Of a stretch of 64,000 nucleotides of DNA, positions 1,824 through 24,852 are shown piece by piece. The DNA is from Spirochaetae bacterium HGW-Spirochaetae-3. Its GTDB lineage: Bacteria > Spirochaetota > Spirochaetia > Treponematales > UBA12059. Under the pieces are notes generated by a model. That model was not told the DNA's origin and did no database searches. It was given only the letters and a program-made list of their open reading frames with translations. Every line of letters begins with the position of its first letter. Position 1 is the first letter of the stretch. The stretch spans positions 124,001 through 188,000 of the forward strand of contig PGXV01000003.1 in the NCBI GenBank assembly GCA_002839315.1. The letters run 5' to 3'. A program made the position numbers and the translations under genes.

Positions 1824-2045
1824 ATGAACCGCGTCTTTTCGTTTATCCTTAACGCGATCATCCGATTCTATCGCGTAGCTCTGTCCCCGTTGAAGCCGCG
1901 GTCATGCAGGTATTATCCGACTTGTTCGGCCTATGCCCTCGACGCGATAGGCCGATACGGGGCCGGCCGCGGCTCTCTGATGGCGTTGAAAAGAATTTTG
2001 CGTTGCAATCCATTACATCCGGGAGGTTTCGATCCGGTCCTATGA
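1824..2045 (+). CDS. yidD: Membrane protein insertion efficiency factor YidD
   Basis: The 73-residue protein has the YidD core with its three conserved cysteines: [10 protein letters not shown], then [15 protein letters not shown], then [13 protein letters not shown]. The family assists YidC-dependent membrane insertion at the inner face of the cytoplasmic membrane. The stop codon overlaps the yidC start (ATGA at 2042-2045), so the two are translationally coupled. Confidence 0.95.
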
Positions 2046-3886
2046 GCATCAACGAAGACGATAACAATAAGGCGTTCGACGCCAAGACGATGATTGCCAT
2101 CGTATTGATGGTGGTCGTCATAACGGTCGGTATGGCCGTACAGAACCACTTCTTCCCCAAGCAGCCACTGCCGGTAGCGCCCCAGGCGACGACGGCTCCG
2201 GCCGCTCAGGCGCCCATCCAGGCGGAAGCCCCGAGCCTGGCGCCGGCCGCCGGCGCGACCGTGGCCGTCGTCGAGACGCCCGACGCCCCCGACAGGGAGA
2301 CGACGCACGCGCTGTCCACGGACTTCTTCGACGCGCTGTTCTCCAACAAGGGCGGAGAGATCGTCTCCCTGAAGCTCAAGCAGCATAAGGAAGACGGGGT
2401 CCCGGTCGAGCTGCTCCTGCCGAGGAACGGCAAGACGGACGGATTCTCCATAGCGCTCGGCGGGGCCGAAGCCCTGCCGATCGAAGCGCTGATGACCGCG
2501 TCCCGCCCGGGTCCCGGACTAATAGAGTTCTCCCGTACGTTCTTCGCCGCCGACGCTTCGGGCGAGCTTGTACCGTTCACGCTCAAGAAGCGCTATGAGT
2601 TCCACGACGGCGACTACATGATAAAGCTGTCGGTGACCATAGAGGGCTCGAACGGAACGGTACCGCGTATAGGCGACGGCGAATTCGCGTACTCGCTCAA
2701 GATAGGCCCCCAGATCGGGCCGACCTACGAGCAGCTCCCCAAGAACGCCGATTGGCGCAAGATCGTTACCTACGAGAACGCCAAGCGCAAGGTGATGAAG
2801 GGCGGCACGCAGGTCTCGCCGTCCAGCAAGGCGTCTTGGTCCGCTATCGCCGGGAAGTACTTCGCGATCATCGTCCTGCCCGACGCGACGCCGTATACCG
2901 CGACCTATACGAACATCTCGGCCGACGGGAAGCCCGTGACGACGTCCATGGCGTTCAGTAGGCCCGCCCTAGGCGCGAGCGTCCAGACCGACGTCTTCCA
3001 TATCTACGCCGGCCCCAAGAGCTCCCGCGAGCTGGCGCGGTACGACGACCCGACAGCCAACGCCTACAAGCGGTCGAGCGACGACCTCGAGGGCGTGATG
3101 GAAGGCGGCAACATCCTCGGATGGCTGGAGACCGCCCTCAAGTGGAGCCTGAACCTGTTCTACGGCATGGTCGGGAACTACGGAATCGCGATCATCCTCG
3201 TGACGATCCTGGTCCGACTTATCATGTTCCCCCTGACGTTCAAGGGTAGCCAGTCGACGGCCAGGATGCAGGAGCTACAGCCAAGGATCCAGGAGCTACA
3301 GGCAAAGTACAAGAGCAACCCGCAGAAGCTCAATCAGGAGATGGCGGAATTCTATAAGAAGGAAGGCTACAATCCGATGTCCGGATGCCTTCCCATGCTC
3401 ATTCAGTTCCCGATCTTCATAGCGATGTACGCCCTGTTCAATAACCATTTCGACCTCAGGGGCGCATCGTTCATAGCCGGCTGGATCAACGACCTGTCGC
3501 TACCCGAAGCCGTCTACACGTTCCCGACGATCAACCTCATCGTCTGGCGCGTATCGGCCATACGCATACTGCCGATCATCTACGTCCTAAGCCAGCTTAT
3601 GTACGGTCGGCTCATGCAGCAGCAGCCGACTACGGGACAGAACGCCGGGCAGATGAAATTCATGATGTACGGCATGCCGGTCATGTTCTTCTTCATCCTG
3701 TACGACGTACCGTCCGGACTGCTCGTATACTGGATATCCTCCAATATCCTGACCGCCATGCAGCAGCTGGTTATCAACAAGGTTATCCACAAGAAACGCC
3801 TGGCAGCGGCGGCGGCCGCTCCTGCTCCCCAACTCAAGCTCGTCCCCAAGAAGGGCGGAAGCGGAAGCAAGAAAGGGCGCAAATAA
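2042..3886 (+). CDS. yidC: Membrane protein insertase YidC (canonical)
   Basis: The 614-residue inner-membrane insertase starts at the ATG overlapping the yidD stop; upstream in-frame starts lie inside yidD. It has an N-terminal membrane anchor (about residues 14-32), a large periplasmic domain (about 60-350) and the five-helix insertase core from about residue 370. The groove arginine is present in [14 protein letters not shown]. The cytoplasmic coiled segment and [11 protein letters not shown] follow, and the tail is basic ([10 protein letters not shown]). This is the normal copy; a YidC-like domain recurs in the fusion protein at 14251-17184, where the arginine is missing. Confidence 0.97.
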
Positions 3887-9126: not shown

Positions 9127-10211
9127 GCAGAACATTCAAGAACCTCCTCGTCACCGGCGGCGCCGGATTCATCGGCTCGAACATGATACGCTACCTGTTC
9201 GAGCGCTCCGGTTTCGAGGGCCGGGTCATAAACCTAGACGCGCTGACCTACGCGGGCAACCTGGAAAGCCTGGCCGAGATCGAGGATCGTTTCGGAGCCG
9301 GTGCCGGTTCGGGACGTCGCTATTTCTTCGAGAAAGCTGACATATGCGACCGGGCCGCAGTCGAGCGGGTGTTTGCGGAGTACGCGATCGACGCGGTCTG
9401 CCACCTCGCCGCCGAGAGCCACGTCGATCGCTCGATACACGGGCCCGAGGCCTTCATACGGACCAACGTGATGGGCACCTTCACCCTGCTGGACGTGGCC
9501 CGTAACGCATGGAGGGGCAGGGACGATGTGCTGTTCCACCATGTTAGTACCGACGAGGTATTTGGCTCGCTCGGCGACACCGGGTACTTCACCGAGACGA
9601 CGCCGTACGACCCCCGGAGCCCATATTCCGCGAGCAAGGCATCGAGCGATCACCTAGTAATGGCGTACCACCATACTTACGGCTTGCCCGTGACGCTGTC
9701 CAATTGCTCCAACAACTACGGGCCGTACCAGTTCCCCGAGAAGCTGATTCCGCTTATGGTCCTGAATATGCTTGAAGGCAAGAGCCTCCCGGTCTACGGC
9801 GACGGCAAGAACATCCGCGACTGGGTATACGTCGAGGACCACAACGCGGCGGTCTGGTCCGTCATGCGGAACGGTCGTAGCGGGCAGACATACAACATCG
9901 GCGGCGAGAACGAGTGGGAGAACATCAAGCTACTGTCGGTGCTTATCGAGAAGGTCGCGGAGGCCACCGGAAAGCCAGCGAGCGATTACGAGAAGCTGAT
10001 CCACTACGTTGCCGATCGACCGGGGCACGACAGGCGCTACGCGATCGACTGCTCCAAGATAAAGACAGAGCTCGGCTGGAAGCAGGATCATGACTTTGCG
10101 TCGGGACTGGAGAAGACCGTCGCGTGGAACCTTGAGCACAAGGACTGGATCGACCATATCAGGAGCGGCGATTATAAACAGTGGGTCGAGAAGAACTACG
10201 CGAAACGATAG
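9123..10211 (+). CDS. rfbB: dTDP-glucose 4,6-dehydratase
   Basis: The 362-residue extended SDR enzyme has TGGAGFIGSNM (NAD-binding), LAAESHVDRSI, HVSTDEVFGSLG (Thr-Asp-Glu catalytic triad) and YSASKASSD (YxxxK). It makes dTDP-4-keto-6-deoxyglucose, the precursor for RfbC/RfbD. It completes the four-gene rhamnose set in the order A-C-D-B. Confidence 0.96.
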   Translation: MSRTFKNLLVTGGAGFIGSNMIRYLFERSGFEGRVINLDALTYAGNLESLAEIEDRFGAGAGSGRRYFFEKADICDRAAVERVFAEYAIDAVCHLAAESHVDRSIHGPEAFIRTNVMGTFTLLDVARNAWRGRDDVLFHHVSTDEVFGSLGDTGYFTETTPYDPRSPYSASKASSDHLVMAYHHTYGLPVTLSNCSNNYGPYQFPEKLIPLMVLNMLEGKSLPVYGDGKNIRDWVYVEDHNAAVWSVMRNGRSGQTYNIGGENEWENIKLLSVLIEKVAEATGKPASDYEKLIHYVADRPGHDRRYAIDCSKIKTELGWKQDHDFASGLEKTVAWNLEHKDWIDHIRSGDYKQWVEKNYAKR

Positions 10212-10238
10212 GAGATTGCCCAAGTAGGGAGCAAATCT

Positions 10239-10268
10239 ATGCGCAGAATGGAAAAGCAGTGCGAATAA
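10239..10268 (+). other. Nine-codon open frame overlapping the next start
   Basis: ATG at 10239 follows AGGGAG (10226-10231) at good spacing and encodes MRRMEKQCE. Its TAA overlaps the region just after the GTG start (10259) of the sugar transferase. It could couple translation into that gene or be an accident; nothing else supports it. Confidence 0.2.
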
Positions 10269-11623
10269 CCAGGAAGACAAAACAGTTCGCTATATTTATC
10301 GTCGATATCGTGTTGCTGTACGCGGCGCTGTGGATATCGCTGTCGTTGCGGTCGCTGTCCGCGCCAAGCATGGCCCGGTATTGGACGCACGTACTCGCTT
10401 TTTCTCCGATGATGCCCGTTTGGGTCGTCGTATTCTATACGATGGGCCTGTACGTGCTCGAGACGCCGTTCGACGGGGTACGCTTCCCCGGGAAGCTGGC
10501 GGCGGCCGTCGGCATCGCCACGCTCATCACGGCGCTGTACTTCTACCTCGTCGCCTCGGCGGCCATGGCTCCCAAGACGATTCTCCTGTTGCACGCGGCG
10601 GTGTCGTACCTGCTGCTACTCGGATGGCGCTACCTGTTGGGAAAGGCGTTCCGGAGCGCCTTATACCGGAAGTCCGTCGTGTTCCTCGGGCTGAACGACG
10701 AGGCCGTCTCCCTGATCGAGGCTATCCGGTCGAAGCCGTTCCTCGGGTACGAGGTCGCGTTCGCCTACGACGAGACGGCGGGCGCCGCGCCGGAAGGCGT
10801 CCCGTTGATAACGAGCCTCGCCGCGCTGGGACCCGAGCTCATGCGACGCGATATCGATATGATCGTGATATCTGACAAGAAGGATCTCTTCGAACCGACT
10901 CTGGCGTCGCTGTTCAGCCTGCTTGGCCGGAGCGTTCGCTACGAGCCCCTGTCGTCCTTCTACGAGACGGTTTTCCGGCGGGTGCCCATAGATACCATCA
11001 ACGAGACCTGGTTCCTCGACAATATAAACCTCCACGATAAGCATCCGTACGAGGTGGTCAAGCGTGGGCTGGATATCGTTATATCCGCAGCTATTCTCAT
11101 CGTGTCCTTGCCGTTCTGGCCGTTCATCGCGATAGGGATCGGGGTCAGCTCGCCGGGATCGGTGTTCTTCTCGCAAACGAGGCTGGGGCGGGGCGGCAAG
11201 CTGTTCACGATACTCAAGTTCAGGACGATGCGCGTGGACGGTAACGATTTCTCTCCTACCGGCGACAAAGACCCGCGCGTCGTAGGCTTCGGTACGTTCC
11301 TTCGGAAGACGAGGCTGGACGAGCTGCCGCAGGCGCTCAATATCCTCAAGGGCGAGATGAGCTTCGTCGGCCCGAGGCCGGAGCGGCCCGAGCTGGCCGT
11401 GGAGCTGGAGCGCGCGGTGCCGTTCTACCGGCAGCGCCTGCTCGCGAAGCCGGGCCTGACCGGATGGGACCAGGTCTCCGGCGAGTACCACTCGCCGTCG
11501 GTCGAGGATACCTACAAGAAGCTGCAATACGATCTGTACTATATCAAGAACATGTCGCCGAGCCTCGACGCGTCGATCTTCTTCAAGACGATCATGACGG
11601 TCCTGGGCCGTATCGGGCGATAG
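10259..11623 (+). CDS. Polyprenyl-phosphate sugar-1-phosphate transferase (WbaP/WcaJ family)
   Basis: The protein is about 454 residues if it starts at GTG 10259. It has four or five N-terminal membrane helices, a CoA-binding-like Rossmann segment (VVFLGLNDEAVSLIEAI), another helix at KRGLDIVISAAILIVSLPF and the C-terminal catalytic domain. That domain has the signatures FFSQTRLGRGG, KFRTMRVDG, LRKTRLDELPQ, VGPRPERPE and KPGLTGWDQV. The family moves a sugar-1-phosphate onto undecaprenyl phosphate, starting lipid-linked glycan synthesis at the inner membrane. The sugar is unknown. An upstream ATG at 10181 would overlap rfbB by 30 bases and adds residues with no family resemblance. Confidence 0.9.
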   Translation: MRITRKTKQFAIFIVDIVLLYAALWISLSLRSLSAPSMARYWTHVLAFSPMMPVWVVVFYTMGLYVLETPFDGVRFPGKLAAAVGIATLITALYFYLVASAAMAPKTILLLHAAVSYLLLLGWRYLLGKAFRSALYRKSVVFLGLNDEAVSLIEAIRSKPFLGYEVAFAYDETAGAAPEGVPLITSLAALGPELMRRDIDMIVISDKKDLFEPTLASLFSLLGRSVRYEPLSSFYETVFRRVPIDTINETWFLDNINLHDKHPYEVVKRGLDIVISAAILIVSLPFWPFIAIGIGVSSPGSVFFSQTRLGRGGKLFTILKFRTMRVDGNDFSPTGDKDPRVVGFGTFLRKTRLDELPQALNILKGEMSFVGPRPERPELAVELERAVPFYRQRLLAKPGLTGWDQVSGEYHSPSVEDTYKKLQYDLYYIKNMSPSLDASIFFKTIMTVLGRIGR

Positions 11624-11640: not shown

Positions 11641-12972
11641 ATGAGCAGGATAGCGGTAGCGGGCACGGGGTACGTAGGACTGGTCAGCGGGGCGTGCCTC
11701 GCGGATTTCGGCAACAGGGTCGTCTGCGTCGATACGAACGTAGAGAAGATAGAGGCGCTGCGGAACGGGAAGATCCCGATATTCGAGCCGGGACTGGACG
11801 ACGTGGTCGCCCGCAACGTAGCGGCGGGACGGCTGTCCTTCGAGACCGGGCTGGCGGGAGCCGTCCGCTCCAGCGAGGTCGTATTCGTCGCCGTCGGCAC
11901 CCCTCCCGCCGACGACGGGAGCGCCGACCTGCAGTACGTCGAGGCGGTGGCCAGGGAGATAGGGCGGGCGATGGACGGCTACAAGGTCGTCGTCGACAAG
12001 AGCACCGTGCCCGTAGGCACCGCGCGCAAGGTTCGGGACTGGATAGCCGAGGAGCTGGCCGCGCGCGGCGTCGACATCGAGTTCGACGTGGTGTCCAATC
12101 CCGAATTCCTCCGCGAAGGCTCCGCCGTGCAGGACTTCACCCACCCGGACCGGGTCGTCATAGGCGCCGAGGGCGAGCGGGCCAGGGGCCTGATGAAAGA
12201 GGTCTACCGCGCGCTGTACCTGAACGAGACGCCCTATATCGAGACGGGCCTGGAGACGGCGGAGATGATCAAGTACGCGGCAAACGCGTTCCTCGCCGTA
12301 AAGATCACGTTCATCAACGAGGTCGCCAACCTCTGCGAGAAGGTAGGCGCCGACGTCCAGGACGTGGCCAAGGCGATGGGCCGAGACGGCCGCATCGGCT
12401 CCAAGTTCCTGCACGCGGGCCCTGGCTACGGCGGCTCGTGCTTCCCCAAGGACACCCACGCGATGGCGATGATCGGCCGCGACTACGGCGAGCCGATGAG
12501 CATCGTGGAGACGACGATAGAGGCCAACGACCGCCAGAAGGCGCGGATGGTCGAGAAGATAGAGGCCGGCATGGGCGGCGCCGGCTCCCTGAGGGGCAAG
12601 ACCGTAGCGGTGCTCGGACTGGCGTTCAAGCCCAATACCGACGACATGCGCGAGGCGCCAGCGATAGCCATATGCGAGGGCCTCGCGGCCCGCGGCGCGA
12701 AGATCAGGGCGTGGGACCCGGAGGCGATGAAGGAGGCGGCCTGGCGCCTCGAGGGCGTCAAGGCGAGCCTCGAGTTCGCCGCCGACGAGTACGACGCGCT
12801 CGACGGCGCGGATGCCCTCGTGCTCGTCACCGAGTGGAACCAGCTGCGCACCCTGGACCTGGACAGGGTCAAGGCACTGATGCGGACCCCGGCCTTCTTC
12901 GACCTGCGCAACGTATACAAGCGCGCCGAGGTCGAGGGTAAGGGCTTCAGCTACTTCGGGGTGGGGCGATAA
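11641..12972 (+). CDS. ugd: UDP-glucose 6-dehydrogenase
   Basis: The 443-residue cytoplasmic enzyme oxidises UDP-glucose to UDP-glucuronate with 2 NAD+. It shows the N-terminal dinucleotide fold AVAGTGYVGLVSG, VAVGTPPADDG, DKSTVPVGT, NPEFLREGSAV and the catalytic Cys in GPGYGGSCFPKD. GLAFKPNTDDMREAPA follows in the UDP-binding part. The ATG follows CAGGAGA. The UDP-glucuronate 4-epimerase encoded at 38955-40034 could convert its product to UDP-galacturonate. Confidence 0.96.
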   Translation: MSRIAVAGTGYVGLVSGACLADFGNRVVCVDTNVEKIEALRNGKIPIFEPGLDDVVARNVAAGRLSFETGLAGAVRSSEVVFVAVGTPPADDGSADLQYVEAVAREIGRAMDGYKVVVDKSTVPVGTARKVRDWIAEELAARGVDIEFDVVSNPEFLREGSAVQDFTHPDRVVIGAEGERARGLMKEVYRALYLNETPYIETGLETAEMIKYAANAFLAVKITFINEVANLCEKVGADVQDVAKAMGRDGRIGSKFLHAGPGYGGSCFPKDTHAMAMIGRDYGEPMSIVETTIEANDRQKARMVEKIEAGMGGAGSLRGKTVAVLGLAFKPNTDDMREAPAIAICEGLAARGAKIRAWDPEAMKEAAWRLEGVKASLEFAADEYDALDGADALVLVTEWNQLRTLDLDRVKALMRTPAFFDLRNVYKRAEVEGKGFSYFGVGR

Positions 12973-12982
12973 GAACACCGGT

Positions 12983-14254
12983 ATGCGGACGTTTTATATT
13001 CTGTTGTTCCTTTTCGCCGCCGCTCCGGCGTTCTCCTACCTCGATCCCGGTACCGGGAGCCTTCTCCTGTACGCTCTTTCCGGCATCGCGACGAGCATGC
13101 TGTTCGGCTTACGGAACGTCTGGTACTGGCTTCGCGGAAAGTCGTTGTTCCGAGGGGGCCCTGCGGTTTCATCCCGGCTACCCGATGTCGTCTTCCATTC
13201 GGAGGGAGGAAAGTACTGGCAGGTATTCGAACCTGTCATCGAAGCCCTGACGGCGGAGGGAGTCGCGTGCGCGTACGTGACGCCGGACGCAAAGGATCCT
13301 GGGCTCTCGTCCAGCATCAAGGGTCTAAATAGCCTCCGCCCGGGCGGAGAGATGGCTACAATCTCCTTCATGAATGCGGCTAGCGCGGCGCTTGTTGTTT
13401 CAACGACCCCGCATCTCGATGTCTACATGCTACGACGCTCCAAAGGCGTGAAGCGATATGCGCACCTGTTTCATTCCCCCACCGATATCGTGTTTTATGA
13501 GAAGTACGCATTCGACTGGTACGATGCGCTGATGACTGTGGGACCGTTCCAGGAACAAAGCGTTCGTGCGCTCGAGTCATGTCGCGGGACGCCACGGAAG
13601 GAGCTTCTGCCCACGGGGAACACCTACTTCGACTATATGCTCGAAGAGACGACTAGGCTCCCCACCAGATCTGACGGTAAGAAGATCGCCTTGTATGCGC
13701 CTACCTGGGGTATTCGAAGTTCTGTACTTAAATACGGAGCAGGCATACTGGAAAGCCTCGCCGAGGCCGGTTTCCAGGTTATATTCCGGCCGCATCCTCA
13801 GTTCTATGTCTCCCACAAGGAGCTCATCGAGGACATCGAGAAGCTGTCAGGAAGGCTCGGAAGCCGAATCGAGATCGACCGGAAGCGAACCGGGATTGAA
13901 TCGATGGCTCGATCCGACCTGATGGTCACTGACCTGTCCGGCGTTCTCTTCGACTACGCCTGCCTGTTCGGAAAACCGGTGCTCCTCGCCATGGCGGACG
14001 CGGAACCCGGCGGCCAGGAGGGAGAGGATCTGGCCAAGCCATATTGGGACGTCGAGGCTAGCCACGAGCTCTCGTTCGGACTGGTCGGAGACGACCTCGA
14101 AGGATTGCCCGCGCTCGCGGAATCGGCTATGGCTTCTACCGAGTCGAACGCCGACCGTATCCGGGATTTCCGGGACCGCAACTTCTACAATTTCGGGCAC
14201 GCCGGCAAAGCCGCGGCCGATAACATAGTCGAGATAATCCGGGGCTCCTATTGA
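12983..14254 (+). CDS. Membrane-anchored TagF-like CDP-alcohol (glycero)phosphotransferase
   Basis: The 423-residue protein has two N-terminal hydrophobic segments (about 2-18 and 26-50, including the motif YLDPGTGSLLLY). A GT-B-like domain of the CDP-glycerol glycerophosphotransferase family (TagB/TagF) follows. Family motifs are HLFHSP (161-166), YAPTWG (238-243), RPHP (269-272) and SDLMVTDLSGVLFDYA (311-326). TagF enzymes move an alcohol phosphate from a CDP-alcohol to an acceptor at the cytoplasmic face. The CDP donor and acceptor here are unknown. It lies 10 bases after ugd, and its TGA overlaps the TTG start of the next gene, tying it to the YidC-sulfatase fusion and the cytidylyltransferase fusion. 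Confidence 0.8.
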   Translation: MRTFYILLFLFAAAPAFSYLDPGTGSLLLYALSGIATSMLFGLRNVWYWLRGKSLFRGGPAVSSRLPDVVFHSEGGKYWQVFEPVIEALTAEGVACAYVTPDAKDPGLSSSIKGLNSLRPGGEMATISFMNAASAALVVSTTPHLDVYMLRRSKGVKRYAHLFHSPTDIVFYEKYAFDWYDALMTVGPFQEQSVRALESCRGTPRKELLPTGNTYFDYMLEETTRLPTRSDGKKIALYAPTWGIRSSVLKYGAGILESLAEAGFQVIFRPHPQFYVSHKELIEDIEKLSGRLGSRIEIDRKRTGIESMARSDLMVTDLSGVLFDYACLFGKPVLLAMADAEPGGQEGEDLAKPYWDVEASHELSFGLVGDDLEGLPALAESAMASTESNADRIRDFRDRNFYNFGHAGKAAADNIVEIIRGSY

Positions 14255-17184
14255 ACTACATCTACCTCGTCGCTGTAAAGCCGGTCGAGCTGTTGCTCGG
14301 CTTTCTGTTCGGCTTGTGGCAACGCATGACCGGGGATCCAGGTACATCTCTCCTCCTGATGAGCCTGTCGGTCACGTTGCTCACAGCGCCGCTATATTAC
14401 CTCTCGGAACGGTGGAAAGCGGCCGATGACGCGCTGAAAGCCCGTATGGCGAAGGAGATCACGAGCGTCAAGCGGCATTACGAAGGGCAGAAGCGATTCT
14501 ACCTGCTGCGCAACGTGCACCGTCTCCACGATTATTCCACGGCCTACACCCTTCGCGCTTCCTTCGGGCTATTCGTCCAGATTCCGTTCTTCTTCGCGGC
14601 GTACGAACTGCTGAGCCGGCATCCGGGATTTGCCGGTGTGCCATTCCTGTTCATCCGCGATCTCGGTATGCCCGATGGACTCCTCGGCGGAGTGAACCTG
14701 CTACCCTGCGCGATGACGGCCATCAACCTCTGCTCATCGGTTGCCTACAACAGAAGCCTTTCGCTCAAAAAGAATTCGACGATGGTCGGCATGGCCATCC
14801 TGTTCCTGGTCCTGCTCTACCGGAGCCCCGCGGCGCTCCTTGTCTATTGGACGATGAATAACGTGCTGTCGCTGGCCAAGAACGTGTTCTTCCCCGCCGC
14901 GAGGCAGGAGCAGGTCGAGGATACAGGGGACGGGACGGTCGCTCTGGCGGTGCACGGACTCCGGGAACTGTACGGCGGCAGCCTGTACCGTCCGATCCTG
15001 CTCGCGGCTCTGTACGCGATCATGGCCGGCCAGTCCTGGTGGCTCATTTCCGCCGCGGCTTCGTTCGAGTATTGCATCGCCGGTACGGCGATTGCCGCAG
15101 CCGGGCTTTCGCTGGCCGCCGCCGCGCACGGATTGCGCAGGCAGGGCCCTAAACGGACGCTGGTGTCGCTGGCGCCGCTCGCCGCGACCTGGCTCTTTTT
15201 TGCCGCGAGCGCCTATGTGCTCGTGTTCGAGCGCAGGCAGAATGCGCTCATCTCGAACAGAAACATCAAGCTCCTGTCCACCATCCTGCTCGACGCGGCG
15301 GGTTGGCTGGCCGCGTCCAGGCTGGGTCCGGCGTCGCCCGAAAAACCTTCCAGGCCGATCCCCGCTGAACGAGCCGGCCCGGGCGTCTACGTGACGGGCC
15401 TGGTGTTCATCGCGCTGTTCGTCTGGGTGGTATCGCCGCTACGGATCTATTTTTCGTCACCGCTCGATGTCGGCATGGGGCCGCTCGAGCTTGTCGCCAG
15501 GAACGTCCCGCCGATGGCGGCCTTTTTCGCCTTGGGTTCCCTTCCGCTGCTCGCGGTCTTGTCAAAAGCGGGGAAGGCATCCTTGCGGACGCCCGAGGCC
15601 GTTGTGCTCGCGGTTATCATCGCGGGTTTCGTCTTCTCCGCGCTCACGGGAGCCCGGTACGGCATACTCGACGAGTTCGCGCTGGAACGGGCCTTCCTGC
15701 TGAACCGCCCTTCACCCTGGCTGTTCCTGCTCGACGTCATGGTGCTTTCCGGTTCTGTCTTCGCGGCGCTGTATTTCTGTGCGCACAGGAGGTCGGCGAT
15801 CATCCCCGCGCTGGCGGTGATGATCGTGGCCGGATCGGCGCAGGTAGCCGCGGCCGCGCTGAAGGCAGAACCAGGAGCGATCGCCCTGGCGACGGAAACC
15901 CGTGACGGCGGAGGTGAACTGCCCGCCGGCGGCGGCAATATCCACAGCTTCAACAAGGGCGGGCGCAATGTCGTCTTCGTGATCGCCGACATGTTCAACG
16001 GCAACTACCTTGGCAGGATGCTCGAGGAAAGGCCGGAACTGGCCGATACGCTCGACGGTTTCACCTGGTACCCCAACGTGGTGGCAACCGCCTCCCATAC
16101 GGCCACGTCGCTTCCTTCGCTGTACGGAGGGTGGGAGTTCGAGCCATCCAAGCTGGATACCATGCCGGGCACCGGCAAGGAGAAGCTCGGCCTGGCCGCC
16201 AGGAAATTCTTCGGCGGCATGATGGAACTGGGCTTCAACGTTGGCGCGGTCGATCCGCTCTACGCCGACTATCCGGCCATTTCGTCCGCCGGAGGCCGCA
16301 TTGTCCGGTCGGAATCATCGTCGTATGTCGGGTACTGGAGGAAGGTCCGCGGGCAGGAGCGGGGCGCGGAGGACGACAATCCAAAGAACGCCCTCCTGTC
16401 GATGCTCACGGTATTCGTCGCGGCTCCGACGATGCTCAAGGCCCGCATCTATGACGAAGGCAGCTGGATCGTCTTCCGGAAGTCGTACCAGTTCAAGTAC
16501 ATCGCCAGGAAGACCCTGTCCAACTATGCGTATCTCGACGTGCTGCCCGAGTTGTCGAGCGCGAGCGTCGAGGCCAAGCCGCTCTTCCTCTTCATTCACA
16601 CGCAGTTCACCCACGAGCCCTTCGGCATTTCGGAGGATGGACGGATCATAGGCAACGGATATCCCAATTCCCGCACCAAAAGCTTCATAGACTCCACGAG
16701 CGCCTTCTACACCGCGCGGGCCTTCGTCGACGCGATGGTCAGGTGGATGGACTGGATGAAGCGCGAGGGAGTCTACGACGAAACCCTCATCATCATGGTG
16801 TCCGACCACGGCAACAATTCCGGCGACCAGGGATTCAGGATAGAGGGATCCTTGGACAACCCCCTGGACCGGCACGAACTCTCGCGAGCGCGCTCCTTGC
16901 TGATGGTTAAGCCGTTCGGCGCAAGAGGACCCGTCAAGCTGGATCGGCGTCTCCTTGGAACCGCCGATACGCCCGCGATACTCTTCAACAAGCTTGGCAG
17001 GGCGGACGGGTACGGGCCAAATCCGGTAGTAGGCGAGGCTACCATGGGAAGCCGCGTACTTTCATTTGCGAGGGTACATGGAGACTGGGCTGATTTCCTC
17101 GACGAGGAAGGCGCAAGGTTCACCTACTATACGGTCCGGGGAGACATTGACGACCCCGCGGCCTGGAGCAAGGACAAACAATGA
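14251..17184 (+). CDS. YidC-like domain fused to a sulfatase/phosphoethanolamine-transferase-like domain
   Basis: This 977-residue membrane protein starts at TTG, overlapping the previous stop. Residues 1-215 match the YidC/Oxa1 core: GTSLLLMSLSVTLLTAPLYYL, the cytoplasmic loop, FGLFVQIPFFFAAYELL, FLFIRDLGMPD and ALLVYWTMNNVLSLAKN. The groove Arg of YidC is replaced by Thr45. About eight further helices (245-535) lead to an extracytoplasmic alkaline-phosphatase-superfamily domain (570-960). That domain has metal Asp in VFVIADMF (D580), a possible nucleophile in SHTATSLPS (615-623), His in FTHEP (788) and Asp-His in VSDHGN (851-852). The layout recalls LtaS/EptA, which transfer phospho-headgroups from lipids. 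I infer a phospho-headgroup transferase. What the YidC part contributes is unknown. Confidence 0.8.
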   Translation: MNYIYLVAVKPVELLLGFLFGLWQRMTGDPGTSLLLMSLSVTLLTAPLYYLSERWKAADDALKARMAKEITSVKRHYEGQKRFYLLRNVHRLHDYSTAYTLRASFGLFVQIPFFFAAYELLSRHPGFAGVPFLFIRDLGMPDGLLGGVNLLPCAMTAINLCSSVAYNRSLSLKKNSTMVGMAILFLVLLYRSPAALLVYWTMNNVLSLAKNVFFPAARQEQVEDTGDGTVALAVHGLRELYGGSLYRPILLAALYAIMAGQSWWLISAAASFEYCIAGTAIAAAGLSLAAAAHGLRRQGPKRTLVSLAPLAATWLFFAASAYVLVFERRQNALISNRNIKLLSTILLDAAGWLAASRLGPASPEKPSRPIPAERAGPGVYVTGLVFIALFVWVVSPLRIYFSSPLDVGMGPLELVARNVPPMAAFFALGSLPLLAVLSKAGKASLRTPEAVVLAVIIAGFVFSALTGARYGILDEFALERAFLLNRPSPWLFLLDVMVLSGSVFAALYFCAHRRSAIIPALAVMIVAGSAQVAAAALKAEPGAIALATETRDGGGELPAGGGNIHSFNKGGRNVVFVIADMFNGNYLGRMLEERPELADTLDGFTWYPNVVATASHTATSLPSLYGGWEFEPSKLDTMPGTGKEKLGLAARKFFGGMMELGFNVGAVDPLYADYPAISSAGGRIVRSESSSYVGYWRKVRGQERGAEDDNPKNALLSMLTVFVAAPTMLKARIYDEGSWIVFRKSYQFKYIARKTLSNYAYLDVLPELSSASVEAKPLFLFIHTQFTHEPFGISEDGRIIGNGYPNSRTKSFIDSTSAFYTARAFVDAMVRWMDWMKREGVYDETLIIMVSDHGNNSGDQGFRIEGSLDNPLDRHELSRARSLLMVKPFGARGPVKLDRRLLGTADTPAILFNKLGRADGYGPNPVVGEATMGSRVLSFARVHGDWADFLDEEGARFTYYTVRGDIDDPAAWSKDKQ

Positions 17185-19007
17185 TCAAACAGGCTATCAT
17201 ACTAGCCGCCGGCATGGGCAAGAGGCTTGGAAAATACACGCAGGACGGCACCAAGTGCATGGTGCGAGTGAACGACCGGTCCCTTATCGAGCGGAGCCTC
17301 TCCGCTCTCGAGGCCGCCGGCATCCACCGCGTCGTGCTCGTCGTCGGTTACCGCGCGGAAAGGTTGATCGCCTACCTCGACGGCAAGTTCCCCGACCTCG
17401 AGCTGATCTACGTGACCAACGAGATCTACGACAAGACTAACAATATCTATTCGCTGTGGCTGGCGCGGGAGTACCTCGCGGCTGAAGATAGCCTGCTCCT
17501 AGAGAGCGACCTGGTCTTCGAGCCGGAGCTGATCGCGGACCTCGTCGCCGATCCCGAGCCCAACCTCGCCATGGTGTCGAAGTTCGAGGCATGGATGGAC
17601 GGCACGGTGACACTCGTCGGAGAGGACCGCGACATCGTCGCCGTGGTCGACAAGCGGGACTTCAAGTGGCGCAACGTGGGCGACTACTACAAGACCGTGA
17701 ACATCTACAAGTTCTCGGCGGAGTTCTCCCGCACCTATTACTTGCCGTTCCTTGACGCGTATCTCGCGGCCTTCGGAGATAACGTCTACTACGAGCAGGT
17801 GCTTAAGGTATTGGCGTTTCTAGATAATGCGAAGCTCAAGGCCCATCCGGTCAGCGGCCGTCACTGGTACGAGATCGACGATCCGCACGACCTCGCGGTA
17901 GCCGAGACCATCTTCGCCCCGCCGGCGCAACGCCTGGCTAATATGCAGGCGCGGTACGGCGGATACTGGCGTTTTCCGGGCATGCTGGACTACTGCTATC
18001 TCGTCAATCCGTACTTTCCTCCGGAGCGGATGCTCGACGAGATCAAGTCAAGCTTCGCGGAGCTGGTGACGCAGTACCCGTCGGGAGCCCGCGTCCAGAG
18101 CGTGCTGGCCGGCAAGGTCTTCGGCGTCGATCCGGATCGCGTGGCCGTAGGCAACGGGGCCGCCGAGCTGATAGACGCGCTGGCGGGGCTGTGGCAGGGC
18201 AGGATGGCTATCCCGTCCCCTTCGTTCAACGAGTACCCCGCGCGGTTCGGACCCGGGCGTACCAAGGTCATCCCCACCGGGGAACGGCTCTCGTATACCG
18301 CCGTCGGGCTCGAGGCCGCGATGACCGACGCCGACATCCTGATCCTGGTCAATCCGGACAACCCGAGCGGCCACTTCATGAATGAGGCGGAGACCAAGGG
18401 CCTGGTAGACCGCCTGCTTGCGGCGGGCAAGCGGGTCGTCGTCGACGAGTCCTTCGCCGACTTCGCCGAGCCTGCGATCAGGTTCAGCCTGCTGGACGAC
18501 GCCTTCCTTGTGGGCCGGCCGGGCCTGGCGGTAATCAAGAGCATATCGAAAAGCTACGGCGTGCCGGGATTCCGGCTCGGCGTGCTTGCCAGCGGAGACG
18601 CCGACCTCGTCGACGCCGTACGCAAGGCTGTCCCCGTCTGGAACATCAACTCGATGGGCGAGTTCTTCCTGCAGATCGTCGACAAGTACAAGGCCGACTA
18701 CCGCCACGCCTGCGACTCGCTCGCCGCGGAACGCGCGTGGCTCGCAGGCAAGCTTTCCGGAACCGGCAGGCTGGAAGTATTCCCTTCTCAGGCGAACTAC
18801 CTGCTGTGCCGCCTGACGGACGGAACGCTGTCGCGTGACCTGGCCGAGTCGCTACTCGCGGAGCACCGCATCCTGATAAAGGACCTGGGCGGCAAGCCGG
18901 GCTTCCCCACCGGGCAGTTCATACGGCTCGCGGTGCGCGGGCGAGAGGACAACGAGAAGTTGGTCGGGGCGCTCGAGGAAGCGCATGGCGGCAAAAGCCG
19001 CCCATGA
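17181..19007 (+). CDS. Cytidylyltransferase fused to an HisC/CobD-like PLP enzyme
   Basis: The protein has 608 residues. Residues 1-245 form a LicC/PntC-type nucleotidyltransferase: LAAGMGKRLG (9-17 region), TKCMV with Lys25, NNIYSL (87-92), ESDLVF (Asp110), EIDDPHDL (231-238). Residues 260-600 are a fold-type I PLP enzyme close to histidinol-phosphate aminotransferase/threonine-phosphate decarboxylase: NPDNPSG (391-397), Asp422 in VDESFADF, Schiff-base Lys457 in SISKSYG, Arg465 in FRLG. Fusions of the phosphonate cytidylyltransferase PntC with an aminotransferase are known in treponemes. Alternatively the PLP half could decarboxylate a serine-phosphate derivative, giving CDP-ethanolamine. 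ATGA overlap with the upstream gene makes co-function likely. Confidence 0.82.
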   Translation: MIKQAIILAAGMGKRLGKYTQDGTKCMVRVNDRSLIERSLSALEAAGIHRVVLVVGYRAERLIAYLDGKFPDLELIYVTNEIYDKTNNIYSLWLAREYLAAEDSLLLESDLVFEPELIADLVADPEPNLAMVSKFEAWMDGTVTLVGEDRDIVAVVDKRDFKWRNVGDYYKTVNIYKFSAEFSRTYYLPFLDAYLAAFGDNVYYEQVLKVLAFLDNAKLKAHPVSGRHWYEIDDPHDLAVAETIFAPPAQRLANMQARYGGYWRFPGMLDYCYLVNPYFPPERMLDEIKSSFAELVTQYPSGARVQSVLAGKVFGVDPDRVAVGNGAAELIDALAGLWQGRMAIPSPSFNEYPARFGPGRTKVIPTGERLSYTAVGLEAAMTDADILILVNPDNPSGHFMNEAETKGLVDRLLAAGKRVVVDESFADFAEPAIRFSLLDDAFLVGRPGLAVIKSISKSYGVPGFRLGVLASGDADLVDAVRKAVPVWNINSMGEFFLQIVDKYKADYRHACDSLAAERAWLAGKLSGTGRLEVFPSQANYLLCRLTDGTLSRDLAESLLAEHRILIKDLGGKPGFPTGQFIRLAVRGREDNEKLVGALEEAHGGKSRP

Positions 19008-19230: not shown

Positions 19231-19893
19231 TTATACTATGGATACTGGCGCAGGGCGGCGCGTCTCCTTGATGTTCTTGTCATAGGGAGACGTGCGTACG
19301 ATCAGCGAATACTGACCGAGCTCGATGCCGGGAGGGACCTGGGCAATTACCGTTCCGGGGACGATTGAGGCGTAGAGGGAAGCCCGGTGTTCCTGTCTAT
19401 TCTTGAACCAGATGCTGAGTTCCGGCCTGGCCTTGTCGAACTTGAGGTGGCTGCCGTGGATGCGCATGAAGTCGCCCCGACCGGCGACGAGGTCTTCCTC
19501 GGTCGCTATGGAGCGGGCCGAGAAGACGATGGGAGCCGATTTTTCGGTATAGGACTCGCGTTGGATCCTGGCGTCCTGGGCCATACTGATCTCTTCGGTC
19601 CTGTTGGCCCTGAAGTGCAGCCGCAGGTCGTGGTTCGACTCTTCCTGCCCGTAGACGAACGGCTGGTCTGGCTGGTCGAAGGTACCCGATGAGGAAAGGT
19701 AGAACGAGCCGAAGGGCAGCTTGACGACGTAGCCCTCGGAAACCGCCTTGTGCAGTTCTTCGGTCAGGAGCTGGAAGGCTCCAGCCAGATCGGTCTTGGT
19801 TATGGTGGTGCGGCCGGTGGCCATGCGGTCGACGAGACCGTCGAAACCGATGGTTTCCTTGTAAGTGGTATGTACCATGTACGGCTTGTGCAT
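19231..19893 (-). CDS. HU-like DNA-binding domain with Ig-like DUF4469 domain
   Basis: The 220-residue protein (ATG 19893; TTG 19902 and ATG 19878 are alternatives) starts with an HU/IHF-related domain. Its pattern is TYKETIGFDGLVDRM, TTITKTDLAGAFQLL and VKLPFGSFYLS, about residues 7-70. The rest resembles the Ig-fold DUF4469 region that follows HU-like domains in Bacteroides and spirochaete proteins (SELSIWFKN, VPGTVIAQVPPGIELGQYSLIVRT). The role is unknown; HU-like domains bind DNA. It is the only minus-strand gene between 4977 and 34783 and separates the two parts of the glycan locus. No clear Shine-Dalgarno is visible. Confidence 0.75.
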   Translation of the reverse strand: MHKPYMVHTTYKETIGFDGLVDRMATGRTTITKTDLAGAFQLLTEELHKAVSEGYVVKLPFGSFYLSSSGTFDQPDQPFVYGQEESNHDLRLHFRANRTEEISMAQDARIQRESYTEKSAPIVFSARSIATEEDLVAGRGDFMRIHGSHLKFDKARPELSIWFKNRQEHRASLYASIVPGTVIAQVPPGIELGQYSLIVRTSPYDKNIKETRRPAPVSIV

Positions 19894-20195
19894 GGCCGGC
19901 AAATAGTTCTATATAGCTGATACGTTTAACATCTGTGTCCCCTGAAGCGAGGAACCACGATACCTTTTTGCGTATAAGAACGTTTGTGAAATCCGTATCG
20001 AGTTTCCGCACTTCGTACTAGAGTTGTGCGCCGGAAAATCCGGTGTTTTCGCGCTCCTTGGCGGGGCTTGTGCTTGACACGTATCTCTATAGGGACCGTA
20101 CTCTCTATATCGACGAAACAGAATTTTATATAAATAATACTTTACAACGATAAAGAAATGGATTTTACCGATACCTCGATGCAAAAGGAACAATA
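19894..20195. other. Intergenic region upstream of the ABC exporter
   Basis: There is no gene here that I can support. It turns AT-rich from about 20100. A perfect -35 box TTGACA (20074-20079) has only a weak -10 (TACTCT, 19 bases further on), so the exporter promoter is uncertain. A short palindrome CCGGA-AAA-TCCGG lies near 20031-20043. Confidence 0.35.
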
Positions 20196-21047
20196 ATGGA
20201 CAAGCCGAGCGATGAATGGGATCTGATCCTGCAGCCGAAGCGGCGGCTGTTTGACCTCCACCTGCGGGAGGTCATCCGTTACCGTGACCTTATATGGCTT
20301 TTTGTAAAACGGGATTTCGTCACTCAGTACAAGCAGACCATCCTGGGGCCGCTATGGTTTATTATCAACCCGCTCTTCTCCACTGTGATGTACAGCTTTG
20401 TCTTTGGAAACCTGGCGAAGATAGGGACGGACGGCATCCCCTTCCTGCTCTTCTACTACGCGGGCACGATGCTCTGGACATTCTTTACCGGTTGTTTCAA
20501 CGATGCGAGCAACATCTTTCTTAATAATGCAGGGCTCTTCGGCAAGGTGTACTTCCCGCGGCTCACGGTACCCATCAGCAATGTGTTCAGCAATCTCACC
20601 AAGGTGGCCATACAGTTTGTTACTCTGATGGTTTTCTATATCTATTACCTTGTTATAAAGGCGCCCGTGCGGCCATCCTGGTGGAGCTTGGCCTTTCCGC
20701 TGATTTTTGTGTGGCTGGCCGTGCTGGCCAACGGCATGGGCATGATAATATCGTCCTTGACTACCAAATACCGGGACCTCAAGCACCTGATAGGTTTTGC
20801 CTTGCATCTGGCCATGTACGCCACGCCCGTGGTCTATCCGCTGTCGCAGATTCCTGAAAAATTTGCCTGGGTAAATTATGTGAATCCGGTGAGCGCGCCT
20901 ATAGAGTTGTTCCGGATCTGGTTCTATGGTGCCGGAACCGTGCCGCCTGAAATGATCGCGACCAGCCTTGGCATGACGGCGGGCTTTACGGTGCTTGGGC
21001 TGGTGATGTTCAACCAGAACGAGCGAAACTACATCGACGTGGTATGA
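20196..21047 (+). CDS. wzm: ABC-2 type polysaccharide exporter permease (Wzm-like)
   Basis: The 283-residue inner-membrane protein has six predicted helices. It shows the ABC-2 polysaccharide pattern RDLIWLFVKRDFVTQYKQTILGPLWFI, FYYAGTMLWTFF, FGKVYFPRLTVPI, KYRDLKHLIGFAL and YATPVVYPLSQIP. With the Wzt ATPase it moves an undecaprenyl-linked polysaccharide across the inner membrane. AAAGGAACAATA precedes the ATG. The ATPase gene starts 13 bases after the stop. Confidence 0.92.
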   Translation: MDKPSDEWDLILQPKRRLFDLHLREVIRYRDLIWLFVKRDFVTQYKQTILGPLWFIINPLFSTVMYSFVFGNLAKIGTDGIPFLLFYYAGTMLWTFFTGCFNDASNIFLNNAGLFGKVYFPRLTVPISNVFSNLTKVAIQFVTLMVFYIYYLVIKAPVRPSWWSLAFPLIFVWLAVLANGMGMIISSLTTKYRDLKHLIGFALHLAMYATPVVYPLSQIPEKFAWVNYVNPVSAPIELFRIWFYGAGTVPPEMIATSLGMTAGFTVLGLVMFNQNERNYIDVV

Positions 21048-21060
21048 GGTGACAGAGAAT

Positions 21061-22362
21061 ATGAGCGACATAGTAATCAGAGCCGAGCACCTCTCCAAGA
21101 TGTACCGCCTTGGCGTCATCAACAATGGCACGCTCTGGAAAGACTTACAGACCTGGGTAGCATTGAAGACCGGCAAGGAAGACCCGCATTCGAAAATAGG
21201 CGAGGACAAATATTCTGGGGATGAGGACCATTTCTGGGCACTCAAGGATCTTAACTTCGAGATCAAGCAGGGCGACCGCGTCGGCATCATCGGGAAGAAC
21301 GGCGCGGGAAAGAGCACCCTCCTCAAGATCCTCTCGCGCATCACCGCGCCTACGGAGGGTACGGTAAAGATCCGCGGCAAGATCGCGAGTCTCCTGGAAG
21401 TAGGCACGGGCTTCCACGGCGAGCTTACTGGGCGTGAGAATATTTACCTGAACGGTGCTATCCTGGGGATGAAGAAGAGGCAGATCGACCGCAAACTCGA
21501 TGAGATCATCGACTTCAGCGGGATAGAGCACCACATCGACACGCCCGTTAAGCGGTATTCCAGTGGCATGTATGTGCGTCTGGCCTTCGCCGTAGCGGCG
21601 CATCTGGATAGTCATATCTTGATTGCGGACGAGGTGCTCGCGGTGGGGGATGCTGAGTTCCAGAAGAAAGCGCTCGGGAAGATGCAGGATTTGAGCACGG
21701 GGCAAGGGCGGACAGTATTGTTTGTTAGCCATAATATGGGAGCGGTAAGGAGTCTATGTAATTCTGGTATATTGCTCGAAAATGGGAAACTAGTCTTCAA
21801 AGCAAAAAACGTTAACGAATTGTACCAAAAATATATCGAAGATGATTTTTCAAGTGTTGAAAGAAGCAAGTTGATTATAAGTAATACAGACATTAAACTA
21901 TTGGAGAATAGCACATTTAAGTTTGAATGTATGTATATACAAGACAGTAGTAACAATATATGTAATTACACTGTCTCTGGTGATAAAGAGATATATCTAA
22001 CGATTGAATTTTCTGTTGCATCTATTGATAGCCGGCTTGCTGTCTATTATAGATTGTACTCCCAAGAAGGTATTGATTTGTATTATTCCCAACAGAATGA
22101 TACGGATCCTGAGAAGTGGCCAGTAATAAAAAACGGGAAAAACATATTGAAAACTAAGATTCCCATCGATTTGTTGAACGAAGGTAGATATTTTATTGAA
22201 CTTTTGTGCTCAATTCGTGGAATAGTTTCTATAATCCCACAAAATACTGTAATACTTGGATTCGTGGTTTCTCATAATTCCAGAAAATCTCTTTTTATTA
22301 AAGAAGAACGACCAGGAGTTCTTAAACCAATTATTATATGGGAAAACGTATATAGGTCGTAA
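21061..22362 (+). CDS. wzt: ABC exporter ATPase with C-terminal glycan-binding domain (Wzt-like)
   Basis: This 433-residue protein was started at ATG 21061 because TGAGGTGA lies 8 bases before it; a GTG at 21049 is the alternative. The ATPase domain (about 1-245) has Walker A GKNGAGKST (78-86), the YSSGM signature, Walker B ILIADEVLAVGD and the H-loop FVSHNM. Residues about 285-433 form a beta-rich Wzt_C-type domain, which in ABC-dependent O-antigen systems binds the terminal sugar. Base composition drops sharply from GC-rich to AT-rich at about 21740-21770, just after the H-loop, so the carboxy-terminal domain appears to have been exchanged together with the downstream AT-rich genes. Confidence 0.92.
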   Translation: MSDIVIRAEHLSKMYRLGVINNGTLWKDLQTWVALKTGKEDPHSKIGEDKYSGDEDHFWALKDLNFEIKQGDRVGIIGKNGAGKSTLLKILSRITAPTEGTVKIRGKIASLLEVGTGFHGELTGRENIYLNGAILGMKKRQIDRKLDEIIDFSGIEHHIDTPVKRYSSGMYVRLAFAVAAHLDSHILIADEVLAVGDAEFQKKALGKMQDLSTGQGRTVLFVSHNMGAVRSLCNSGILLENGKLVFKAKNVNELYQKYIEDDFSSVERSKLIISNTDIKLLENSTFKFECMYIQDSSNNICNYTVSGDKEIYLTIEFSVASIDSRLAVYYRLYSQEGIDLYYSQQNDTDPEKWPVIKNGKNILKTKIPIDLLNEGRYFIELLCSIRGIVSIIPQNTVILGFVVSHNSRKSLFIKEERPGVLKPIIIWENVYRS

Positions 22363-22752: not shown

Positions 22753-24852
22753 ATGAAATTATCGATTAGCTTCAATTTTTTTAATGCAGAGGAACACCTA
22801 TATTCATCGGTCCATAATATCCGTGCTGCCGCCGAGCACATTTCGATCGTATATCAGACAGTATCGAACCATGGTTTGCCAATGAGTCCATTGGCTCATG
22901 AGGTACTACGCAGTTTAATAGATGAAGGCTTAATTGACGAATATTATCAATATAGAACGGATTTCCGAATTTCCGCTGCGGAAAATGAATTTCAAAAGAG
23001 ACGTATCGGCTTAGATCTAGCAATTAAATCAGGAGCGACACATTTTCTATTGATGGATGCTGATGAGTTCTATAAGATTGACGAATTTACAAGAGCGAAG
23101 GAACTCATTGAAAAGGAAGACATAGGCTATTCGTGTGTTGATTCCTATTTCTACATCAGACAGCCGGAGTATAGGTCTAAATATATAGACACGACGAAGG
23201 TGTGTTTCATCTCCAAAATATGTAAACAAATGGTCTTTGATCTTAATGGAAGCTTTCCCGAGGATTGTGTAGATCCGACAAGAAGAATCACGATTAAAAA
23301 TGGGAAATATTTTAAATTCTCCACATCAGAAATTGCTATGCATCATTATGCCTTCATCAGAGTCAACATGAATTCAAAATTGGCTAATAGCAGTAACAGA
23401 GGAAACTTAGAGTTCATGGAAAAGGCAAGCATTGCACTTCGGAATTGGAGATTTCCCGCCGTTTTATCGTTTCCAAATAAACCGACGATGCCAATAATCC
23501 TTGTAAAGGATGAATTCAATCAGACTGCATCAACTCATGTGCAAAGATCGAACCTGCGCAATGTTCATGCCAACCCCATAGAAAAGAGAATTGCTCTCAT
23601 CTGCACCTTGCGGTTAACTATGCTTGCTGGGAGCGAGCTAGTTTGTTATGAACTTTCTGAATATTTAGTGCGTAACAATTTTAGAGTATTGATATATACG
23701 AATTTGATAGAACCAAAAATTGAAGAAATGTTCTCGAATCTTGGCAAAGACATAACAATTATCACAAATCCAAATGACTTGGGTTTAGTGGAATCTTATT
23801 CACATTTATCTATGTGCTGGATACAGCATCAACAGATACCTTCTTCCTTGGTTGAGTATATTATTAATGGCAAGAGAAAACCTTTATTTATTTTTAATCA
23901 TATGTCTTTCTTTGAGTCCTTCGAGTGGCCCATTGCATACCAGGCCGAAGCAATACTTGCAGATTTGGTACTTTTTAACTCGTCTGAAACCTTCGATTTT
24001 CAACGTAATTATTTTCCTGTAAAATATGATCGCTTTATGCTTTTTCAAAATCCTGCTCCAAAACGATACTATGATGCGTATGATCAATATGAGGTGGTGA
24101 GGATTGATAGTGGAATCAAAATAAGGAATATCGCTATTATCTCGAATCATGTTCCAGAAGAGCTATTGAGCGTCGCTGACGAACTACTACGATATGGAAT
24201 CACAACCAACTATATCGGTAAAAATAGGCAGCTCAATGTTCTAATAACACCAGAGTTGTTAATGAATTACGATGTTGTGGTGACTATCGGAAAAACAGTC
24301 CAGTATTGTATCTGCATGGCCAAATCGGTATATATTTATGATTATATGGGCGGAGATGGATACCTGACACCTGAAAATTTTGCTGATAATGAATATCACA
24401 ATTTCTCTGGTAGGCCATATAGTAAAAAGAAAGCAAAAGCGATTGTTTTAGAGTTATTGAAGGGGTACGAAGCAAATATTGAATTTATGAAAGTGCTGCG
24501 CCGTGATCATGAGATCAAGTTCAACTTAGATCATGTAATGGACAGGATCCTGAATTCTGATGTTAAGATTATCGAAGTAGATATGTCTATTGAAACGCGC
24601 TTCTCACTTTTGGCTCTCCAAGGTTATTCTCAGAATTTGCATAATACGGTCGTCTGGATTGAGAGCGATTACAATAGCAAGTTAAAGGAACTCGTGAAAA
24701 AGAAAACCGCACCTCCCAATGGAACACCATCGATTGATTTTCCAGTATATGCTAGGCGATTAGACATAGTGAAAATAATGAAGAAGATCAAAGCGAAAAT
24801 TTCGCGATATCTAAAGAAGTGGATGAGAAATATAGAGAAGAGTACTGGATGA
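22753..24852 (+). CDS. Two-domain glycosyltransferase, AT-rich
   Basis: The protein has 699 residues, with a strong AGGAGGTAA site before the ATG. Residues 1-260 look like a GT-A fold transferase: SISFNFFNAEEHLYSSV, FLLMDADEFY with the DxD-type metal site near 102-105. Residues about 280-600 resemble a GT-B domain, starting RIALICTLRLTMLAGSELVCYELSEYL, with IFNHMSFFESFEWP and a late VVTIGKTVQYC segment. A basic tail ends it. Base composition is about one-third GC, unlike the flanks, indicating acquisition by transfer. The sugars transferred are unknown. IS66 remnants lie on both sides. Confidence 0.75.
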   Translation: MKLSISFNFFNAEEHLYSSVHNIRAAAEHISIVYQTVSNHGLPMSPLAHEVLRSLIDEGLIDEYYQYRTDFRISAAENEFQKRRIGLDLAIKSGATHFLLMDADEFYKIDEFTRAKELIEKEDIGYSCVDSYFYIRQPEYRSKYIDTTKVCFISKICKQMVFDLNGSFPEDCVDPTRRITIKNGKYFKFSTSEIAMHHYAFIRVNMNSKLANSSNRGNLEFMEKASIALRNWRFPAVLSFPNKPTMPIILVKDEFNQTASTHVQRSNLRNVHANPIEKRIALICTLRLTMLAGSELVCYELSEYLVRNNFRVLIYTNLIEPKIEEMFSNLGKDITIITNPNDLGLVESYSHLSMCWIQHQQIPSSLVEYIINGKRKPLFIFNHMSFFESFEWPIAYQAEAILADLVLFNSSETFDFQRNYFPVKYDRFMLFQNPAPKRYYDAYDQYEVVRIDSGIKIRNIAIISNHVPEELLSVADELLRYGITTNYIGKNRQLNVLITPELLMNYDVVVTIGKTVQYCICMAKSVYIYDYMGGDGYLTPENFADNEYHNFSGRPYSKKKAKAIVLELLKGYEANIEFMKVLRRDHEIKFNLDHVMDRILNSDVKIIEVDMSIETRFSLLALQGYSQNLHNTVVWIESDYNSKLKELVKKKTAPPNGTPSIDFPVYARRLDIVKIMKKIKAKISRYLKKWMRNIEKSTG

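Follow-up and report, generated by a model that had tools for sequence, protein, structure and literature searches.

What do three tightly coupled genes in an O-antigen-type locus of Spirochaetae bacterium HGW-Spirochaetae-3 achieve together, and do they need each other? The genes, here called A, B and C, occupy positions 12983 to 19007 of a stretch of 64,000 nucleotides (contig PGXV01000003.1, 124,001 to 188,000), which is called the window in what follows. An earlier note had described them as a translationally coupled set, in which one protein can make a headgroup activated by cytidine diphosphate (CDP), a TagF-like one can use it and the third looks able to move a phospho-headgroup to the outside. 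Coordinates, domains and the 4-bp overlaps (TTGA between A and B, ATGA between B and C) were confirmed, and the domain assignments support a CDP-headgroup maker in C, a TagF-like user in A and a phosphotransferase fold of the periplasmic type in B. The comparison of genomes gives a different answer to the second question: A and B make up the core, which at least three headgroup suppliers, C among them, can serve in turn. The genes and their segments, all on the + strand, are as follows (aa, amino acids; TM, transmembrane; PLP, pyridoxal phosphate).

12983..14254, +: gene A, 423 aa, TagF-like (PF04464 Glyphos_transf, 47.6 bits, cut-off 22.1, 1.5e-12); a signal-like segment and a YLDPGTGS hairpin/TM anchor (about aa 1-50) precede a TagF-like GT-B domain; candidate CDP-headgroup phosphotransferase
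14251..17184, +: gene B, 977 aa, TTG start; 60KD_IMP/YidC at 32-213, Sulfatase at 572-866
14251..14940, +: YidC/Oxa1-like membrane domain of B, aa 1-230 (PF02096, 6.6e-16)
14941..15930, +: multi-TM linker of B, aa 231-560, with hydropathy peaks at 274, 307, 379, 419, 450, 491 and 516
15931..17184, +: alkaline-phosphatase-superfamily domain of B (sulfatase/LtaS/EptA fold; PF00884, 8.3e-10), predicted nucleophile Thr617
17181..19007, +: gene C, 608 aa; NTP_transf_3 at 5-130, Aminotran_1_2 at 315-597
17181..17930, +: LicC/PntC-type cytidylyltransferase domain of C, aa 1-250 (PF12804, 1e-13)
17931..19007, +: CobD-like PLP domain of C, aa 251-608, fold-type I (TIGR01140), predicted phosphoserine decarboxylase

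The A-B pair and its headgroup suppliers

Among 119 genomes of the order, A is found at 56 places in 49 genomes. At 40 of these places B lies within 300 bp and at 48 within 5 kb; where B is on the same contig (50 places), it is on the same strand in every case. Both genes are present in 48 of the 50 genomes that carry either of them. Their proximity is not a matter of chance. In a wider sample, B is detected at E <= 1e-40 in 52 of 247 Spirochaetota genomes, with four to five copies in one genus. The exact order A-B-C recurs in one other genome (G012, the L105 contig, 'Spirochaetes bacterium LacPavin_0920_SED2_MAG_63_13'), while G073 has the order B-A-C, and nine of 24 relatives with a full-length C have A, B or both no more than about 10 kb from it (G012, G073, G124, G128, G035, G114, G084, G127 and G115). 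A and B are a conserved pair; with C they do not form an obligate trio.

What adjoins the pair varies from genome to genome. The cytidylyltransferase half of C stands alone beside it in four genomes. In three genomes (G094, G115, G205) the neighbors are phosphoenolpyruvate (PEP) mutase, Ppd and PntC-AEPT, the set for 2-aminoethylphosphonate (AEP), and in G192 they are PEP mutase and Ppd; in G115, C shares a cluster with the AEP set. Genomes of the same order have a PntC-AEPT that matches the Treponema denticola enzyme at 906 bits. A TagD-like enzyme adjoins the pair in G283 (L139), in the order WbaP-Ugd-TagD-B-A, which follows the plan of the window. C or PntC is present in 34 of the 49 genomes with A versus 9 of the 70 without it (P = 3e-10, uncorrected for relatedness), and the association of the A-B pair with CDP-headgroup synthesis is widespread.

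Among the closest parallels is the pnt pathway of T. denticola (PntC-AEPT TDE1415; PDB 6pd1/6pd2; PMC6697681), in which, as in C, a LicC-type cytidylyltransferase is fused to a PLP enzyme and a small aminoalkyl phosphorus headgroup is activated. Homologues of A and B stand within the same cluster in the relatives L046 and L050. The two systems differ in that C has a class I CobD-like PLP domain and the source genome lacks PEP mutase. The T. denticola paper, published in Nature Communications on nucleotidyl activation in phosphonate biosynthesis, characterizes PntC without mention of TagF or sulfatase genes, and calls the steps after AEP activation unknown (PMC6697681). Because the A-B pair occurs in AEP clusters of treponeme relatives and elsewhere adjoins different headgroup makers, A and B are concrete candidates for the final transfer in phosphonate tailoring.

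The pair also occurs in more distant Spirochaetota (L141 of G205 and L136 of G215); in L136, a nucleotidyltransferase gene and another gene lie between A and B. In L042-L043 (G070) and L045 (G034), B is repeated in tandem, with four to six copies accompanied by one or two copies of A, which suggests paralogues for different acceptors.

Predicted activities of the three proteins

The cytidylyltransferase half of C (52.2 bits against a cut-off of 27) matches the structures 1jyk and 6pd1. In T. denticola PntC, Glu104 and Glu196 face the primary amine of AEP, and the equivalents in LicC are Asp105 and Asp192 (Rice et al., PMC6697681). C has glutamate at both positions, E108 and E205, and these are invariant across 16 C homologues from Spirochaetota, Firmicutes and Actinobacteria. 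E108 was placed by hidden Markov model (HMM) alignment, as was E205 relative to LicC D192; the pairing of E205 with PntC E196 runs through the YE motif, the HMM alignment being one column off. Since glutamate is found at both pocket positions, the sequence points to a small primary amine, for example phosphoethanolamine, rather than choline as substrate. Like the lic pathway (LicC being a CTP:phosphocholine cytidylyltransferase), the module would activate a CDP-headgroup before transfer to a surface glycan, and LicD is encoded near C in several genomes; it differs from lic in its Glu/Glu pocket, its TagF-like transferase in place of LicD and its predicted de novo headgroup.

The PLP half belongs to Aminotran_1_2 and is class I and CobD-like, not class V as in AEPT; 6pd1 aligns with the nucleotidyltransferase half alone. 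Its best NCBIfam model is that of the CobD threonine-phosphate decarboxylase (TIGR01140, 173.1 bits), followed by hisC (130). The nearest solved structure by sequence is 6oux (135.6 bits), a PDB entry titled 'threonine phosphate decarboxylase-like enzyme', ahead of CobD 1lc5 (93.2 bits). C, 6oux and CobD have the same lysine, and the motifs WNIN..GE and CYLxNPY are common to C and 6oux and absent from CobD. We take 6oux to be the L-serine-O-phosphate decarboxylase SMUL_1544 of Sulfurospirillum, which the literature looked at did not confirm. K457, WNxNS and CYLVNP are kept in the 16 C homologues, which span several phyla. The most likely product of C, as far as it can be read from these features, is CDP-ethanolamine starting from phosphoserine; within the range of headgroups offered by the earlier note, phosphoethanolamine thus stays as the best guess. 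C differs from 6oux and CobD in carrying a fused cytidylyltransferase and in having no link to cobamide synthesis: a role in vitamin B12 synthesis was rejected because CbiB is missing in 22 of 25 C-carrying genomes and a separate CobD homologue lies beside CbiB on contig 4 of the source genome.

Genes resembling opine dehydrogenase and ornithine cyclodeaminase, named by eye from the sequence, lie beside C in L106, L107, L109, L114 and L091. N-carboxyalkyl ethanolamine phosphate headgroups are known from some O-antigens, and such headgroups might be the products there.

Protein A resembles the TagF/TarL teichoic acid polymerases (PF04464) in its GT-B fold. In its structure model (pLDDT 79.5) the top fold match is TagF with Z 21.6, tied with UDP-GlcNAc 2-epimerases; the fold matches do not separate these two and the Pfam match does. 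A differs from TagF/TarL in that it falls far short of the TarF equivalog NF041712 (14.2 bits, cut-off 550), is hairpin-anchored and is partnered by B. H164 and RPHPQ at 269-273 are invariant. The hairpin-like segment YLDPGTGS, N-terminal to the enzyme domain, was seen in nearly all relatives inspected, and the charge distribution suggests that the enzyme domain is cytoplasmic.

Protein B combines a YidC-like domain with a sulfatase-like fold. The 60KD_IMP domain scores 59.2 bits against a Pfam cut-off of 35, and with the same 59.2 bits does not reach the cut-off of 84.3 of the curated YidC model TIGR03592. The housekeeping YidC gene of the window sits separately at 1904-3886, and B was rejected as its equivalent. 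In the alignment, the groove arginine of the housekeeping protein is replaced by threonine in B, by threonine or asparagine in its relatives and by lysine in fusion proteins of Firmicutes; because of this replacement, an ordinary insertase role for B seems unlikely.

In the outer domain of B, D580, T617 and D852-H853-G854 are invariant in six homologues. Thr617 occupies the position of the modified cysteine or serine of sulfatases, and a true type I sulfatase was rejected, as the formylglycine motif C/S-x-P-x-R is absent at the nucleophile, where B has SHTATSLPSLYGG with its invariant threonine. The motif SHTATSLPSLY resembles the nucleophile region of EptA/MCR. With a threonine nucleophile, aspartate and histidine metal ligands and an alkaline-phosphatase-superfamily fold, B has the features of EptA/LtaS-type enzymes and is predicted to be a phosphotransferase, while no curated EptA or LtaS family cut-off is reached. 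B shares with the EptA/MCR phosphoethanolamine transferases and LtaS the fold, the position of the threonine nucleophile, the DHG metal motif and a membrane anchor with an outside catalytic domain, and differs from them in that its membrane part consists of a YidC-like domain and additional TM helices.

A proposed relay across the membrane and its alternatives

In Firmicutes, the same parts are dealt out differently. A Solobacterium genome (L113) has C, then a YidC-TagF fusion, then a YIDPS hairpin-TM-sulfatase protein, and a Lachnospiraceae genome (L114) has a YidC-TagF fusion upstream of C. One stretch of a Eubacterium genome (L155) encodes a YidC-TagF fusion, a YIDPS hairpin protein that stands free, a fusion of cytidylyltransferase, TagD and PEP mutase, and in addition Ppd and a TM-sulfatase protein. 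The free hairpin protein is the following.

L155:3611-3841, +: YIDPS hairpin protein, 76 aa, between the YidC-TagF fusion and the cytidylyltransferase-TagD-PEP mutase triple fusion

In the window, the arrangement is instead hairpin-TagF together with YidC-TM-sulfatase. Reciprocal fusions are a classic sign of cooperating parts. Those found across these genomes give the best support for the view that the membrane pieces belong together and that a single machine is probably built from the YidC-like, TagF-like, hairpin and sulfatase-like parts.

We consider it somewhat more probable than the reverse (roughly 0.55) that the cytoplasmic product of the module is CDP-ethanolamine, from which phosphoethanolamine is put onto a surface polysaccharide or surface glycolipid. 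At the level of sequence and genome, this reading is supported by the identity of the domains, a pocket of the amine type, the pairing of A with B, the exchange of one headgroup maker for another and the re-dealt domains; the substrate and product of C, the acceptor of A, the direction of transfer, a lipid-borne intermediate and what the YidC-like domain does are inferred. In the predicted first step, which is fairly well supported, the CobD-like half of C would decarboxylate O-phosphoserine to phosphoethanolamine and the LicC/PntC-like half would join this with CTP to CDP-ethanolamine. A, anchored by its hairpin with the active domain inside the cell, would then use CDP-ethanolamine to place phosphoethanolamine on an acceptor in the membrane. 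The YidC-like membrane domain of B and the hairpin may take up or hold the lipid-borne headgroup, and the outer domain of B, via Thr617, may hand it to the exported glycan in the fashion of EptA or LtaS. More tentatively, and clearly with less confidence, a general transmembrane relay can be imagined, in which a TagF-like transferase, a YIDPGTGS hairpin, a membrane domain of YidC fold and a Thr-type transferase of sulfatase fold, as four separable parts, would bring any headgroup activated by CDP or CMP from the cytoplasm to surface glycans, the YidC fold having been repurposed from protein insertion to the passing of lipids or headgroups.

Several observations weigh against the synthesis and transfer of phosphoethanolamine by A, B and C. 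The association of A with C or PntC is weaker within single families (P = 0.07 in f5), and among the 49 genomes that carry A, 15 lack both C and PntC. Conversely, 13 of the 24 relatives with a full-length C show no A or B in the fetched surrounding stretch, and two more have A or B about 24 kb away. LicD is often found near C where A-B is absent; therefore C can serve other transferases, and its product is probably a general CDP-headgroup. The score of C with TIGR01140 (173.1 bits) lies under the curated cut-off of 290.55 bits, and the pocket and PLP evidence cannot tell phosphoserine from threonine phosphate, or a decarboxylase from an aminotransferase. The AlphaFold model of B is weak (pLDDT 49.1, six sequences) and its membrane part is not interpreted; the fold search is informative only for region 570-940, where it gives Z 17-19, with sulfatases, LtaS and EptA/MCR within about 2 Z units, and does not choose among these. 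Finally, a CDP-alcohol phosphatidyltransferase gene in the same glycan locus (37064-37843, +), with weak likeness to PIP synthases, could encode a second user of CDP-ethanolamine; its homology to the CDP-alcohol phosphatidyltransferase in L109 is at family level only.

Among the alternatives, the one that deserves most attention, at perhaps one chance in a handful, is that A and B share a pathway without any hand-over: A would decorate the glycan directly with the CDP-headgroup on the cytoplasmic side, and B, working separately in the periplasm, would trim or hydrolyse phosphodiesters or take its headgroup from phosphatidylethanolamine. TagF-type enzymes act inside the cell on lipid-linked acceptors, and B matches hydrolases equally well in fold; the near-obligate pairing of A and B, however, suggests physical cooperation, and so does the swapping of YidC and hairpin parts between TagF-like and sulfatase-like proteins. 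It is somewhat less probable that the relay operates as proposed and C yields another CDP-aminoalcohol, either CDP-1-amino-2-propanol from threonine phosphate, which is the substrate of CobD itself, or a serinol-type product by transamination; the hisC model also scores, at 130 bits. Related enzymes of Campylobacter jejuni, Cj1436/Cj1437, are of the serine-phosphate decarboxylase and the serinol-phosphate kind. The motifs that C has in common with its nearest structure, 6oux and not CobD, argue for phosphoserine instead.

Two further headgroups appear improbable. A could polymerize glycerol phosphate from CDP-glycerol into a teichoic-acid-like chain with B acting like LtaS, as membership of A in PF04464, LtaS among the matches of B and the TagD-like enzyme directly adjoining B-A in G283 would allow; yet no TagD-like gene lies near the module in the window, PF01467 matches are on other contigs (the two strong ones of CoaD/NadD size), and the headgroup maker of the operon is of the amino-alcohol type. 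Less probable still is AEP, the other headgroup named in the earlier note. Relatives of A-B do occur in PEP mutase/Ppd/PntC-AEPT clusters; in the source genome (G000) AEP was rejected, since PEP mutase (PF13714) has no match there, nor in G012 with the same A-B-C order or in G073 with B-A-C, PntC-AEPT is absent from the source genome and G012, and the PLP domain is not of class V.

Precedents exist for tailoring with CDP-headgroups (lic, pnt), for TagF and for EptA. No description of the A-B pair, of the combination of four parts or of the fusion of cytidylyltransferase and CobD was found in the open literature searched, which lacks most subscription papers; the earlier note likewise knew of no described system with its combination of three genes. 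There is a fair chance that the module embodies a new mechanism. If the four-part relay exists, it would supply the missing last steps of treponeme phosphonate tailoring, and the phosphoethanolamine reading includes a bacterial de novo route to CDP-ethanolamine from phosphoserine and a use of the YidC fold other than as an insertase.

The surroundings of the module

The surroundings are of the O-antigen type, with nucleotidyltransferases, Rml enzymes, WbaP, Ugd, Wzm/Wzt and many glycosyltransferases. Some genes near the module are listed here.

10181..11623, +: WbaP-like initiating sugar-phosphate transferase (PF02397, 1e-58)
11641..12972, +: Ugd, of the UDP-glucose dehydrogenase family, immediately upstream of A
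20196..22362, +: Wzm/Wzt ABC exporter genes

The gap between ugd and the start of A is 10 bp; in G012, too, ugd precedes A, and in G283 it precedes TagD-B-A. The exporter genes adjoin A-B in G101 as well. An Rfam search gave no match. Between C and wzm, a gene on the opposite strand (19231-19902, -) encodes a DNA-binding protein of the HU type that carries HU-HIG and DUF4469 immunoglobulin-like domains. On the 3' side of wzt lies an open reading frame of 699 aa (22753-24852, +) without a match in Pfam or NCBIfam, and further on a single protein of 1102 aa (26182-29490, +) unites WbsX, GT4 and GT2 glycosyltransferase domains.

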